Assembly: GCA_021413735.1 (NCBI GenBank)
Contig: JAIOPV010000119.1
Coordinates: forward strand, 1-64,000
Source: Planctomycetota bacterium
GTDB taxonomy: Bacteria; Planctomycetota; Planctomycetia; Gemmatales; Gemmataceae
Length of the DNA: 64,000 bases
Reading direction: 5' to 3'
Shown piece by piece: positions 26,214-55,419 of this stretch. Both the position numbers and the translations under genes were made by a program. The notes beneath the pieces are model-generated. The model was not told where the DNA came from, did no database searches, and saw nothing but the letters and a program-made list of their open reading frames with translations. Position 1 is the stretch's first letter. Each line of letters starts with the position of its first letter.

Positions 26214-26241
26214 GGCCGCCCCGTTGGGGCGACGGCTAAAC
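26214..26241. repeat. Palindrome family C copy between atpF and atpH
   Basis: Stem cgcccc / ggggcg with loop gtt, followed by acggctaaacgcc, ending six bases before the atpF stop. Confidence 0.85.
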
Positions 26242-49557: not shown

Positions 49558-49605
49558 GGCGGTTAGCGGGTCCGCTTGCCGCCCCGATGGGGCGACCGCT
49601 ACACT
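49558..49605. repeat. Palindrome family C copy after aguA
   Basis: Core gccgccccgatggggcg followed by accgctacac, with a partial left partner (ggcggttagcggg). It lies directly upstream of the kinase gene. Confidence 0.75.
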
Positions 49606-49616
49606 TTGTACCCATT

Positions 49617-51953
49617 ATGTCCCGCGATCGGGTATCCTGCCGTTTGGCGGCGCAAGAGCCATTGACTGCGTGGTTCCCTTTCACACCCCCAACGGACGGA
49701 GGCGGCGTGATCGACGGCGGACCAACACCTCTGATGGGCGACAAAGACTGCTCCGCTGCGCGCGAGTTGAGTCTCCGAGGAGCACGTCCGCCCGCCAAGG
49801 TGCCAGGCTACGAACAGGAACAGTTCCTCGGCAGCGGGGCGTATGGCGAAGTCTGGGTTGCCGTTAATCGGAACAGCGGGCGGAAGGTCGCCATCAAGTT
49901 CTATACGCGCCGCGGCGGCCTCGACTGGGCTTCACTTGCCCGCGAAGTCGAGAAACTGCGATACCTGTTCTCCGACCGCTACGTCGTGCAGCTCTTCGAG
50001 GTCGGATGGGAATCCGATCCCCCGTATTACGTCATGGAGTTCATGGAGAACGGCTCGCTCGAAGACCTGCTGCGCACCGGTCCTATTTCGACGCACGACG
50101 CCATCGGCGACTTCCGCGAAGTCGCCATCGCACTCGTTCATGCTCACAACAAGGGCATTCTGCACTGCGACCTGAAACCCGCGAATATTCTGCTCGATCA
50201 CGACCGCCGACCACGCCTCGCCGATTTCGGTCAATCCAGGCTCACGAATGAGATGTCGCCGGCGCTCGGCACGCTGTACTACATGGCTCCCGAACAGGCC
50301 GATCTGGACGCGACGCCCGACGCTCGTTGGGATGTGTACGCTCTCGGTGCGGTGATGTACCGGATGCTCACGGGGCAACCACCGCACTACAAGAGCTGGC
50401 CACTGTCGAGCGGAAACCTCGAATCACAACTGGCCGCGTACCGCAAGCTCATCCTGACCTCGCCGATTCCCAAACTGCATCGGCAGGTTCCGGGTGTGAA
50501 CGCCGACCTCGCCAACATCGTCGAGCGGTGCCTGGAACCGAGTCCGTCGAAGCGATTCGCGAATCCGCAGGCAGTCGTTTCCGCGCTCGACGCCTGGCAA
50601 CTGCGACGAGTCCGCCGACCGATCCTGATCTTCACGGGAATCGGGTTCTCGCTGTTGCTGCTCATCGTGGCCGCGATCGGAACGTATGTTTTCCGCACGT
50701 CCGTAGCCACTGCTCGCAACGGCGTGATTGATCGCTCACTGGAAGGGAATCGGTTTGCGGCACGCACGGAAGCCCGTCAACTCGGGATGCAGATTCAGTT
50801 CCGCTGGGCACAACTCGAAGGTGCTGGACGCGACCCGCAGATCCGCGAGTTGATCTCCAAGGGCGAGAAGCTCAAGACCGATCCGAAAGCGTGTGCGGAA
50901 CTCGATGCGGCTCTCGCGGCTCGGCGGGTTCGCGCAGATCGGCAATACGACGAATTGAACCGCTCCTCGCTGTGGTTTATCGACGATGCCGGGGGCTACC
51001 AACGCGGCACGGCTCCAACCTACGAGGCCGACCGGCACAAGTATCGTGGGTACCGCGATTACTTCCATGGGCTCGGTCGCGAACTCGAAGACAAGGTCGG
51101 CCCGGCGAAGAAGATCATTGACGCACCGCACCGATCGCTCGTGTTTCGTCGGCAACACGAATCAGGCAACGCGGTCTGGTCGGTTGCGTTCAGCGTGCCT
51201 GTGTGGGACAACCCGACCGATCCCTTTGCCGAGCAAATCGGTGTTGTCGGCGTAACGCTGGATTTGAAGGGCAAGACTCGCGTCTCGGGTGACCGAGAAC
51301 GGTTCGCAGTGCTGATCGACACGCGGGCCGACATCACCGGCCGACGCGGGCTCATCATTCGCCATCCGTACATGGAAGACCTGCCGCCGGGAACCGAGGT
51401 GACTCCGTTTTACGCCGACGAGGTGGTGAAGTGGGCGGATGAAAAGAAGTCCGATTTCGCTCCGGAAGAAGATTATCACGACCCGGTTGGTGGCAAGTTC
51501 GACGGCGGCGCATGGCTCGCGTCGGTGGAGCGGGTCATTGTTCGCCCGGAGGAAGGCAAGCCGACCGACACCGGCTGGGTGATTCTGGTGCAGGAGCGCA
51601 AAGATGAAGTTCTCGCACCCGTCACGGCTCTGCAATGGCATCTCGGTCGTGGTGGTGCCATCGCGAGCGGGTTTCTGTTGCTCGTCATCACGCTGGTGTG
51701 GATGGGCACGGTTTCCGTGCTGGACTCTTCGCCGAAATCGCGGATGACGCGGTTGCTGCGTCGTTGGGCTGGCCTACCGACCACGACCGCGGGCGGCACA
51801 GCAACGGCCAACACAGCAGGGCTGAGTGCGAACCCGAGCGGCCAAACCATTCGGCCTGTCGAAGCGAAGCCGTCCGGTTCCGCAACGATCGTACCCGAAC
51901 CTTCTGCGAGGAAGCCGGGCACAGACGAATTCGACGACCCGCAACCGGACTGA
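49617..51953 (+). CDS. Membrane Ser/Thr protein kinase with periplasmic Cache-type sensor
   Basis: A 778-residue Hanks-type kinase. The cytoplasmic kinase domain (about 65-335) has the glycine loop LGSGAYGEVWVAV, Lys94 in VAIKFY, catalytic loop HCDLKPANILL (Asp185, with Cys in place of Arg, so a non-RD kinase), DFG at 203-205 and YYMAPEQ. A membrane helix follows (FTGIGFSLLLLIVAAIGTYV), then a roughly 300-residue extracytoplasmic domain of dCache/PDC type (DDAGGYQRGTAPTYE; HRSLVFRRQHESGNAVWSVAFSVPV), a second helix (AIASGFLLLVITLVWMGTVS) and a Thr/Pro-rich cytoplasmic tail with potential phosphosites. ATG 49617 is chosen; downstream starts near 49734 are possible. It stands 131 bases upstream of an FHA-domain cyclase, a likely phosphothreonine reader. 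Confidence 0.9.
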   Translation: MSRDRVSCRLAAQEPLTAWFPFTPPTDGGGVIDGGPTPLMGDKDCSAARELSLRGARPPAKVPGYEQEQFLGSGAYGEVWVAVNRNSGRKVAIKFYTRRGGLDWASLAREVEKLRYLFSDRYVVQLFEVGWESDPPYYVMEFMENGSLEDLLRTGPISTHDAIGDFREVAIALVHAHNKGILHCDLKPANILLDHDRRPRLADFGQSRLTNEMSPALGTLYYMAPEQADLDATPDARWDVYALGAVMYRMLTGQPPHYKSWPLSSGNLESQLAAYRKLILTSPIPKLHRQVPGVNADLANIVERCLEPSPSKRFANPQAVVSALDAWQLRRVRRPILIFTGIGFSLLLLIVAAIGTYVFRTSVATARNGVIDRSLEGNRFAARTEARQLGMQIQFRWAQLEGAGRDPQIRELISKGEKLKTDPKACAELDAALAARRVRADRQYDELNRSSLWFIDDAGGYQRGTAPTYEADRHKYRGYRDYFHGLGRELEDKVGPAKKIIDAPHRSLVFRRQHESGNAVWSVAFSVPVWDNPTDPFAEQIGVVGVTLDLKGKTRVSGDRERFAVLIDTRADITGRRGLIIRHPYMEDLPPGTEVTPFYADEVVKWADEKKSDFAPEEDYHDPVGGKFDGGAWLASVERVIVRPEEGKPTDTGWVILVQERKDEVLAPVTALQWHLGRGGAIASGFLLLVITLVWMGTVSVLDSSPKSRMTRLLRRWAGLPTTTAGGTATANTAGLSANPSGQTIRPVEAKPSGSATIVPEPSARKPGTDEFDDPQPD

Positions 51954-52004
51954 GCAGGCTGGGTCAAACGACCACAAACACCAGATTCCAGTACTGCACC
52001 CCTT

Positions 52005-52065
52005 TGTCTGAATCGTGTCTTTATCGGGTTTCGATCGTGCGACTGACTCTTCTGCTTTCTTGTCT
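52005..52065. repeat. Palindrome family J, single-arm copy
   Basis: tgtctgaatcgtgtctttat followed by cgggtttcgatcgtgcgact, homologous to both arms at 3997-4165 (one direct, one inverted). Here the second arm is missing. It separates the kinase and cyclase genes. Confidence 0.75.
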
Positions 52066-52084
52066 TTGATCGGTGGAACGAACC

Positions 52085-53932
52085 ATGCTGCTCATCGCAC
52101 AAGGCCCGAACGCGACCGACCGCTGGCGACATCCGCTGCCAGCCGAGGGTACCGTTGTTCTCGGTCGAGATTCGGCGACGTGGAACGCACCGTGGGAGCC
52201 GTTCCTCGCTCGTCGCCACGCGGAACTCACTCCGCATGGCGAACGCCTGAAAACACGCCGACTTTCCTCCGCCACGAACCCGATCTTCCGGGCCGGTAAG
52301 CAGGTCGAGTCGTTTGAACTGGAAGCTGGCGAATCGTTCGTCATCGGCCACACCGTGTTCACCCTCGTAAGCCCTTCGACGCGCACGTTCTCAGCGCTTT
52401 CTCCGGGCGAAGATCGCGTTCTGGTCGAAACGCGAGCCGTGAAACACCGCGAACTCGACGGCATGGCGTTCCGCGACGCCCCGCATCGCCTCGACGTCCT
52501 CAGCAAACTGCCGGACGTGATTTCCAGTGCCAGCGACGACCCCGATCTCTTCGCTCGCCTCACGGACATGCTCCTCGCGGGCGTTCGTCGTGCTGATGCC
52601 GTGGCGCTCGTCAGCACCAGACCCGCCGGCGACATCTCGAAAGAATGCTCCGTGGCCGACGCCACTCGCGCGATCAAGGTGCTTCACTGGGATCGTCGGT
52701 TCGTCGGTGAAGGAGCATTTGAGCCAAGTCGGAGGCTCATCGCGGAGGCAGTCGAGAAACAGGATCGAACCGTTCTGCACGTGTGGGGCAGCCACAGTCG
52801 GCCAAATGAGCCTGCCAAAGAGAATGAGCCGTTCACCCTTCGCGGCGGGTTCGACTGGGCCTTCTGCACACCGGTTCACTCAGAAGGCTGTCCGGGCTGG
52901 GGCATCTACGTTGCGGGCAAGTTCGCGGGTGCGGATGCGAGAACTCTGCTCGCTCCGTGGGACTCGAACGAACTCCGCGACGACGTGAAGTTCGCCGAAC
53001 TCGTCGCGGACATTCTCGGAGCACTCCGACAAGTGCAAGTCTTCCGCGAACGGCAGGGCGTGTTCCGCAGGTTTTTCTCCCCCGGCGTCATGAATCTGCT
53101 TTCCGGTCAGGAAGGCCCGCGTGCCCTGGAACCGCGTGAGGCGGATGTCACGGTTCTGTTCTGCGATTTGCGTGGGTTCTCGAAGAAGGTGGAGGAAGCG
53201 GGGGCGGACCTGCTTCCGATCCTGAATCGAGTCAGCACGGCGCTGGGGGTGATGACTCAGAACATCCTCCGGTATCGCGGAGCAATCGCGGACTTCCTCG
53301 GCGACGCGGCGTTGGGCTTCTGGGGTTGGCCGATCAGTCATCCGGGGAAGGCCGAGGATGCGTGTCGGGCGGCGCTTGGCATTCGTGCTGCGTTCGAGGA
53401 GATTGGCAAAGACCAGTCGAATCCGTTGTCGGGGTTCAAGGTTGGCATCGGCATCGCGTCCGGGCGAGCGGTTGCGGGCGGAATCGGGCCGGCGGAGCAG
53501 GTGAAGATCACCGTGTTCGGTCCGGTGGTGAATCTGGCGTCGCGTCTGCAAGACATGACGAAGTTGTTGCGGGTGCCCATTCTGATCGACGAGCCGACGG
53601 CTGTTGCGGTGCGAGCGCATACTTCGCCGGATGTGGCTCGCGTTCGCAGGCTGGCGCAGGTGAAACCCTATGGACTTGCGACGCCGATCATGGTCACGGA
53701 GTTGATTCCGCCGGCTGGTCCGGGTGAAGCGATCTCGAACAACGATGTGGCCGCGTATGAGAAAGCACTCGATGCATTCTTGGAACAGGACTGGAACGAG
53801 GCGTACAAGTTATTGCATCAGGTGCCGCCGGACGATCGCGGCAAGGATTTGCTGATGGAGTTCATCTTGAAGTACAACCGCACCCCGCCGACGAACTGGA
53901 ACGGCGTCGTTCCGCTGGGGAGCAAGAATTAA
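52085..53932 (+). CDS. FHA-GAF-class III nucleotide cyclase
   Basis: A 615-residue cytoplasmic signalling protein. FHA domain (1-98): VVLGRDSATW and ARRHAEL, the phosphothreonine-binding arrangement. GAF domain (about 130-325). Class III cyclase (about 345-545): metal Asp361 in VLFCDLRGFSKK, metal Asp407 in FLGDAAL, Asn483 and Arg487 in VVNLASRL. Where adenylate cyclases have Lys and Asp for adenine recognition, this sequence has Asp403 and Lys474, the reverse charges. The C-terminal 70 residues are helical (AYEKALDAFLEQDWNEAYKL). ATG 52085 preferred. The catalytic metal and transition-state residues are present, so activity is likely; the product (cAMP, cGMP or other) is uncertain. Placement behind the membrane kinase suggests a relay. 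Confidence 0.9.
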   Translation: MLLIAQGPNATDRWRHPLPAEGTVVLGRDSATWNAPWEPFLARRHAELTPHGERLKTRRLSSATNPIFRAGKQVESFELEAGESFVIGHTVFTLVSPSTRTFSALSPGEDRVLVETRAVKHRELDGMAFRDAPHRLDVLSKLPDVISSASDDPDLFARLTDMLLAGVRRADAVALVSTRPAGDISKECSVADATRAIKVLHWDRRFVGEGAFEPSRRLIAEAVEKQDRTVLHVWGSHSRPNEPAKENEPFTLRGGFDWAFCTPVHSEGCPGWGIYVAGKFAGADARTLLAPWDSNELRDDVKFAELVADILGALRQVQVFRERQGVFRRFFSPGVMNLLSGQEGPRALEPREADVTVLFCDLRGFSKKVEEAGADLLPILNRVSTALGVMTQNILRYRGAIADFLGDAALGFWGWPISHPGKAEDACRAALGIRAAFEEIGKDQSNPLSGFKVGIGIASGRAVAGGIGPAEQVKITVFGPVVNLASRLQDMTKLLRVPILIDEPTAVAVRAHTSPDVARVRRLAQVKPYGLATPIMVTELIPPAGPGEAISNNDVAAYEKALDAFLEQDWNEAYKLLHQVPPDDRGKDLLMEFILKYNRTPPTNWNGVVPLGSKN

Positions 53933-53944
53933 CACATCGAAATT

Positions 53945-54008
53945 GTGTAGCGGTCGTCCCAACGGGACGACGTCCGAAAGCGCCGCCCCGTTGGGGCGGC
54001 CGCTACAC
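53945..54008. repeat. Palindrome family C, two-arm copy
   Basis: Outer arms gtgtagcgg and ccgctacac; inside are two hairpins, cgtcccaacgggacg and gccgccccgttggggcggc. It lies between the convergent cyclase and phosphatase genes. Confidence 0.9.
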
Positions 54009-54019
54009 GATATTGACAT

Positions 54020-54706
54020 TCACTCGTCGTACTCAAGTTCCCCTTCGCGCCTGTTGCCGAGCATGTCGGCCTGCCAGTAACGGGCGTTGTTCACATCCAA
54101 ACAGGTCAGCCAGCCGCCCATGGAAGCCCGCGTGTCGATGCAGACCGCCCCGGGAATCACCTTCGGTAACCCCGACCGCTGTGCCGAGTGCCCGCAGATT
54201 ACCATCTTTCCGGAGTGGTGCCGCATCGCGTCGGGCAGAAACTCCCAGAACAGCGCGTTCTCCGGTTGATCTTCCATCTCAAAGCCGCACAGCACGGTCG
54301 CGTGTACGAAGATGAAGCGGTCGCTCTCGTAATAATTGAGCAGGTCGCTGATGATGAAGTCCCAGTGTGCCGCGGAAATTTCTTCGAGGCTCCCCGAGCG
54401 ACCCGGCAAGATGCTGTACGAAGCCAGCGTCTCGACGCCGCCGACGCTCAACCAATCCCGCTTTTCGCCGCGACCGCCACGGTAAGCGTCAACCATCAAT
54501 TTCTCGTGGTTGCCGCGAAGGCAGATCAGGTTCAGCCGTTCTCGCAGCTCCAGTAACCGATTGAGGACACCACGCGAATCGGGGCCACGGTCCACGTAGT
54601 CGCCGAGCGTGACGACCACATCTTCGCGTGTCGGCTTCACCCAATCGAGGAGGGTGTCGAACGCAGCGAGGCAACCGTGGATGTCGCCGAACGCAAGCAC
54701 ACGCAT
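54020..54706 (-). CDS. Metallophosphatase (serine/threonine phosphatase type)
   Basis: A 228-residue calcineurin-like phosphatase of the bacterial PPP/ApaH family. Metal motifs GDIHG (7-11), GDYVDRG, GNHE and a late GHSA are all present. MRVLAFGDIHGC begins at ATG 54706; the longer frame is rejected. It may dephosphorylate proteins, including targets of the nearby Ser/Thr kinase, or cleave diadenosine tetraphosphate. It is divergent from the HAD gene (38 bases apart). Confidence 0.9.
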   Translation of the reverse strand: MRVLAFGDIHGCLAAFDTLLDWVKPTREDVVVTLGDYVDRGPDSRGVLNRLLELRERLNLICLRGNHEKLMVDAYRGGRGEKRDWLSVGGVETLASYSILPGRSGSLEEISAAHWDFIISDLLNYYESDRFIFVHATVLCGFEMEDQPENALFWEFLPDAMRHHSGKMVICGHSAQRSGLPKVIPGAVCIDTRASMGGWLTCLDVNNARYWQADMLGNRREGELEYDE

Positions 54707-54744: not shown

Positions 54745-55419
54745 ATGCCAATCCTACTTTTCGACATCGACGGAACGCTGGTTCGCACCGGCGGCGCAGG
54801 CAAGGCCGCCATGGAGCACGCACTCCAGACCGCGTTCGGCGTCGAGAAACTGCTCGACACCGTTTCGTATTCCGGTCGCACGGACCGTGCCATCGGCCGC
54901 GATCTGCTGCGAGTTCACGGGATCGACCCATCGCCCGTGAATCAGGTTCGGCTTCAGGAAGCGTATCTGTCGCAGTTGCCGACGCGATTGCAGACGCACG
55001 GCGGCAACGTATGCCCCGGCATCACGGAACTCCTTGATGTGCTGCACCCGCAGCCAGGCGTGGTGTTGGGTCTTCTGACGGGGAATGTGCGTGTCGGTGC
55101 GAAGCACAAGCTCGGGCATTTCGGGCTGTGGGATTTCTTCACCTGTGGCGGCTTCGGTGACGATCACTTCGAGCGTGACGACGTGGCTCGCATGGCGGTC
55201 GCCGAGATGCGTTCGCATCTCAAACGAGACTTCGACGCGGGCGACGTGTGGGTGATCGGCGACACGCCGTTGGATGTGCAGTGTGCGCGGGCGGTGGGTG
55301 CGAAGGCGGTGGCGGTGGCGACCGGCTGGCACCCGATTGAGGAACTCGCGTCGCACGCACCGGATTATGTGTTGGCGGACCTATCGAACCCGGAGGAGTT
55401 GTTGCGCGTCTGGAGGTAG
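54745..55419 (+). CDS. HAD-superfamily phosphatase (phosphoglycolate phosphatase-like)
   Basis: A 224-residue HAD hydrolase with a C1-type alpha-helical cap. Motifs: catalytic DIDGTLV at the N-terminus, the Gly/Thr motif LGLLTGN, a Lys in the KHKLGHFGLW region and the metal-binding Asp in VIGDTPLDVQCA. ATG 54745 (MPILLFDIDG) is chosen. The substrate is not determinable; phosphoglycolate phosphatases are the closest pattern. A tataac block at 54732-54737 just before the ATG suggests a very short leader. Confidence 0.88.
   Translation: MPILLFDIDGTLVRTGGAGKAAMEHALQTAFGVEKLLDTVSYSGRTDRAIGRDLLRVHGIDPSPVNQVRLQEAYLSQLPTRLQTHGGNVCPGITELLDVLHPQPGVVLGLLTGNVRVGAKHKLGHFGLWDFFTCGGFGDDHFERDDVARMAVAEMRSHLKRDFDAGDVWVIGDTPLDVQCARAVGAKAVAVATGWHPIEELASHAPDYVLADLSNPEELLRVWR

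Follow-up and report, generated by a model that had tools for sequence, protein, structure and literature searches.

The window examined here, a stretch of 64,000 nucleotides from a planctomycete of the family Gemmataceae, carries a gene for a membrane sensor kinase and, consecutive with it on the same (+) strand, a gene for an FHA-cyclase. The arrangement described in an earlier note on this DNA, with the kinase directly upstream of the FHA-cyclase and a metallophosphatase gene following the pair on the opposite strand, is thus present, and comprises the following features.

49710 to 51953, + strand: membrane Ser/Thr kinase, 747 aa (Pkinase E=1e-44; dCache_1 in homologues; AF2 model; start taken from relatives)
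49725 to 49736, + strand: N-terminal TPLM motif with Thr6 of the 747-aa protein, a candidate FHA docking site or phosphosite
50163 to 50179, + strand: HCDLKP catalytic-loop signature (HRD to HCD), in 41/41 adjacent kinases and 1/40 other sampled kinases
52085 to 53932, + strand: soluble protein of 615 aa with an FHA domain, an alpha/beta domain (GAF-like?), a signalling helix and a class III cyclase domain
52085 to 52399, + strand: FHA domain; retains Arg32, His49 and Asn69 but has Ala46 where Ser is conserved (residues counted from GTG 52073)
53117 to 53701, + strand: class III nucleotide cyclase domain; Asp365 and Asp411 (metal), Asn487 and Arg491 kept; Asp407, Thr480
54020 to 54706, − strand: metallophosphatase; start more likely near 54706 (MRVLAFGDIHG) than at 54931

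GTG 49710 is the most probable start of the kinase, rather than 49617, from which the earlier note had counted it, or 49587, because a GGAGG lies just upstream of this codon and homologous kinases begin at the equivalent position. For the cyclase, ATG 52085 is the most likely start (alternative GTG 52073), and the N-terminus of its relatives, MxLIAQG, matches this codon. The two genes are separated by about 130 bases, between which a simple consensus scan found no terminator-like or promoter-like site; a search against Rfam gave no match. The pair is flanked on both sides by a REP-like palindromic repeat (49582 to 49604, + strand, and 53945 to 54008), a further copy of which is found in the window at 26219 to 26241 (+). 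This repeat has the form GTGTAGCGG ... CGCCCC-N-GGGGCG ... CCGCTACAC, the region from 53928 to 54016 folding at −58 kcal/mol (z −9.8), and it occurs in 83 copies in the genome (up to 3 mismatches) and 0 in a reversed control; the genome also has 11 Y1_Tnp (RAYT-type) matches. The metallophosphatase, whose best family matches are ApaH/PrpE/PphA-like phosphoesterases, had been suggested to reset the system, a role that was ruled unsupported because its place beside the pair is conserved in no relative but the nearest.

The kinase consists, in order, of a disordered N-tail, a Hanks-type kinase domain, a first TM helix, a periplasmic dCache-like sensor, a second TM helix and a Thr/Ser-rich C-tail, with residues 1–9 and 693–747 falling below pLDDT 50 in the AF2 model. 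The kinase domain is complete, as judged from its Pkinase match, and the Gly-loop, VAIK Lys, catalytic Asp, DFG and APE elements of Hanks-type kinases are conserved across 30 homologues, while the HRD of the catalytic loop is changed to HCD, the non-RD form. In non-RD kinases, phosphorylation of the activation loop need not act as a switch; autophosphorylation at this loop therefore need not be the switch in the paired kinases. Both the sequence and the AF2 model place an extracytoplasmic domain between the two TM helices, the sensor region being modelled as an alpha/beta domain between long helices. Its earlier reading as a Cache-type sensor is probably correct, since dCache_1 (Pfam) is matched by 21/30 kinase homologues (best 1.3e-14), despite the window kinase itself having no Pfam Cache match. 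The fold did not place the sensor, because a Foldseek search with the complete kinase model brought up kinase domains only, and the sensor alone gave no match among solved structures; Pfam finds no cyclic-nucleotide-binding domain in the kinase. The Thr-rich cytoplasmic tail is there, as had been noted, but it is not conserved among homologues: its variable length and composition, and its near-absence in several partner kinases, led to its rejection as the docking site.

In the cyclase protein, the FHA domain of the window scores just below the Pfam cut-off (18.8 vs 20.7 bits). Its assignment is borne out by the relatives, 17/22 of which match the FHA profile in one set and 23/35 of which match PF00498 at E<=0.01 (best 1e-9), by a profile search of the PDB, the matches of which are FHA domains including GarA/Rv1827, and by the confident N-terminal beta fold of the AF2 model. 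The canonical five-residue phosphothreonine pocket (Gly, Arg, Ser, His, Asn) is incomplete in the window, where Gly31, Arg32, His49 and Asn69 are kept and the phosphate-contacting Ser is Ala46, as it is in most of the window's sub-clade; of the Arg and Ser that the earlier note had considered necessary for binding, only the former is thus in place. Across 110 cyclases of the family, the Arg is found in 104/110, the Ser in 95/110, the His in 108/110 and the Asn in 109/110. In a divergent paralogue family the FHA Arg is changed to Ser and the two purine-specifying positions read Gly/Asp, and this Arg-less family still adjoins an HCD kinase in several genomes. Gemmata sp. IIL30 has its orthologous FHA-cyclase spread over two reading frames, which reflects a true frameshift or else an error in sequencing.

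Between the FHA and cyclase domains lies a conserved alpha/beta domain (AF2) with invariant residues. It had previously been called a GAF domain, a reading that found no support: none of 35 family members matches GAF in Pfam, and a profile search of the PDB gave no match. The C-terminal class III cyclase, on the other hand, stands: Guanylate_cyc (Pfam) is matched with E=6e-12 (46 bits vs a cut-off of 21.9) and by 35/35 relatives, the catalytic fold aligns with solved adenylyl and guanylyl cyclases alike (VIA-align Z about 20), and the metal-binding Asp pair and the transition-state Asn/Arg are invariant in 110/110 cyclases. The position of the purine-specifying Lys is occupied by Asp in 101, Gly in 8, Glu in 1 and Lys in 0 of these 110 sequences (Asp407 in the window), whereas the second specificity position (Asp/Thr) is Thr480 in the window. 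Under the published rules, Lys together with Asp/Thr denotes an adenylyl cyclase, and Glu with C/S/T/H/A/G at the second position a guanylyl cyclase (PMC4215837). The window cyclase falls under neither the ATP-specific rule, having Asp407 in place of Lys, nor the guanylyl rule, which asks for Glu at this position, though its Thr at the second position fits the latter. Because the ATP-specifying Lys is replaced, by Asp throughout the core family, the product cannot be predicted by these rules, with cGMP, cAMP or both as candidates.

The pairing itself extends well beyond the window. The cyclase family is common among 59 relatives, with homologues of the sensor half of the kinase often directly beside it. 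A sample of 80 named loci and further relatives was assembled, in which cyclases were counted if they had at least 2.5 kb of upstream DNA, and adjacency was defined as a homologous same-strand kinase ending within 600 bp upstream of the cyclase. Of the 96 cyclases so counted, 41 have an adjacent kinase (median gap 61 bp), in every case with the rare HCD; among 40 further kinases drawn from the window's genome, 38 have HRD and 1 has HCD. As this genome (9.8 Mb, draft) contains 152 Pkinase matches, chance adjacency is estimated at about 0.5% per gene. On the cyclase tree (FastTree, with some long branches) some 18 changes in adjacency are required; well-supported branches force 12 or more of these, and even 12 exceed the chance estimate. 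Since adjacency is seen in the deepest paralogue and all the way out to the tips, the pairing appears to be either old and often broken, or repeatedly regained. It spans at least 7 families, and at least 30/60 cyclase-bearing genomes of the class have an HCD site lying roughly 1.7 kb upstream of this gene. HCD sites are present in 59/60 genomes with the cyclase vs 23/38 without it (Fisher p 1e-6, with genomes treated as independent whatever their relatedness). No other widely shared neighbour of the cyclase was found, the kinase alone being common. The earlier note had proposed checking whether the two genes are neighbours in other genomes, and they are so across numerous genera and among paralogues too, though in several Gemmata-type genomes kinase and cyclase lie far apart. 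The window's own genome holds three cyclases of the family, which are its only PF00211 matches, and a second complete kinase-cyclase pair on another contig, the two kinases being 46% identical. A further HCD kinase of this genome, its N-tail reading EATLAQ, has no cyclase in its vicinity and might be the one that serves the cyclase left unpaired. Judged from sequence comparison, the kinase/FHA-cyclase pair is a conserved two-gene signalling module of the Planctomycetia.

A candidate for the contact between the two proteins is found in the N-tail of the kinase. In 37/41 paired kinases a T-x-x-M/Q motif stands exactly 34 residues before the Gly-loop, as T-x-x-M on the Gemmata side and T-x-x-Q on the Pirellula side, in a tail that AF2 models as disordered, and the motif is also kept in dispersed (non-adjacent) kinase orthologues. 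FHA domains often read a specific residue at +3 from the phosphothreonine. The motif is put forward as a better docking candidate than the C-terminal Thr tail, although a structural role would explain its constant spacing just as well. As an exclusive docking signal it was rejected: the GTxxQ form also occurs in about 6/40 unpaired control kinases of the same genome, of the HRD type, so that T-x-x-Q belongs to a wider kinase tail and is not specific to the pair. Six unpaired kinases of this genome share the N-tail GT[LIV]xQ...A..AA..S, followed by the PGY in front of the kinase domain. In the paralogue lineage in which the FHA Arg is replaced by Ser, the N-tail motif of the kinase is displaced, which represents a single event.

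Taken together, a phosphothreonine relay from the sensor kinase to the FHA-cyclase is plausible and partly supported, and we hold it with slightly less than even confidence. In this model, a ligand outside would bind the sensor and change the activity of the kinase, which would phosphorylate a threonine, most likely its own N-terminal TPLM/TxxQ Thr and perhaps the cyclase too. The FHA domain would then dock on the phosphothreonine and so recruit the cyclase to the membrane kinase, following which the middle domain and the signalling helix would relay the docking to the cyclase dimer and change its cyclic nucleotide output. The relay is favored by adjacency at 41/96 against about 0.5% by chance, by the exclusively HCD partners and the second pair in the genome, by the kinase being the only widely shared neighbour, by the excess of HCD sites in genomes with the cyclase, and by the conservation of the FHA pocket, the catalytic residues and the N-tail motif at fixed spacing; cNMP-binding proteins encoded in the genome were also counted in its favor. 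It is weakened by Ala46 in the window's FHA domain and the distance between the genes in several Gemmata-type genomes, by the TxxQ tail of kinases that have no cyclase partner, by the HCD sites in 23/38 cyclase-less genomes, and by the one lineage that keeps the pair despite the FHA Arg being changed to Ser.

Three alternatives to this model were considered. A somewhat unlikely one holds that the kinase phosphorylates the cyclase and that the FHA domain is mainly a substrate-docking module, the output being set by cyclase phosphorylation and not by docking alone; the persistence of pairs with Ser-less or Arg-less FHA domains and the precedent of the PknG N-tail (PMC8546545), which matches the disordered Thr-bearing N-tail here, are consistent with it, but no conserved phosphosite was identified on the cyclase, and the full phosphothreonine pocket of most relatives implies that docking itself is under selection. 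It is improbable that the link is instead decaying in the window's sub-clade, with a relay that works in relatives being weakened or rewired here. Such a decay would account for the loss of the Ser to Ala/Gly in 15 cyclases, of which 9 have no adjacent kinase, and for the frequent separation of the genes in this sub-clade, and the equivalent Ser-to-Ala change in MupFHA severely disrupted its interaction with PknQ (PMC4238996); the Arg, His, Asn, kinase N-terminal motif and catalytic residues are, however, conserved in the sub-clade even when the genes are dispersed. There is likewise little probability that the cyclase acts upstream or in parallel, sensing through its middle domain, and that the pair reflects co-regulation for a shared response with no kinase-to-cyclase relay, for while the invariant residues of that domain suggest an input of its own and both genes can be far apart, the kinase has no cyclic-nucleotide-binding domain and most relatives keep the FHA pocket.

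Returning to the relay, its extension to a class-wide system, in which the kinase would gate the cyclase via FHA docking at the N-terminal TxxQ/TPxM and the product of the cyclase, with its Asp at the purine-specifying position, would be cGMP or another nucleotide and not only cAMP, is unlikely as a whole. The relay, if it holds, would use an FHA domain to tie Hanks-type kinase signalling directly to cyclic nucleotides. To our knowledge, very few of the 100 or more Ser/Thr kinases that planctomycetes of this family have per genome are assigned a partner. For Gemmataceae, 98–140 such kinases are reported (PMC11032199). The pair provides one kinase family with a genetically linked partner whose output can be measured, besides defining a cyclase family whose product eludes the known specificity rules. 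No description of planctomycete FHA cyclases was found in a literature search that fell short of most subscription papers, and the pair apparently joins parts of known types in an undescribed combination.

Among known systems, the pair resembles PknG and GarA/OdhI of Actinobacteria, in which a Ser/Thr kinase with a disordered, Thr-bearing N-terminus has an FHA partner: the autophosphorylated N-terminus of PknG recruits its FHA substrate GarA/OdhI and then phosphorylates it (PMC8546545), and GarA is among the nearest solved FHA domains to that of the cyclase by profile search. It differs in that PknG is soluble and has a TPR domain, and GarA/OdhI lacks a cyclase and acts on metabolic enzymes. 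A kinase is also paired with an FHA protein in the mycobacterial PknQ–MupFHA, encoded on one plasmid (PMC4238996), and PknH–EmbR, in neither of which the FHA partner is a cyclase, EmbR being a transcription factor. With the adenylyl cyclases CyaC, CyaB and OaPAC and the guanylyl cyclase Cya2 the window cyclase shares the catalytic fold, the metal Asp pair and the Asn/Arg, but unlike them it has Asp for the purine-specifying Lys/Glu and an FHA input domain. Finally, the TOMM kinase/cyclase fusion (TIGR03903), to which both window proteins match weakly, likewise joins a kinase to a cyclase; it differs from the pair in being one fused protein, and the window scores far below its cut-off, over the kinase and cyclase domains only.
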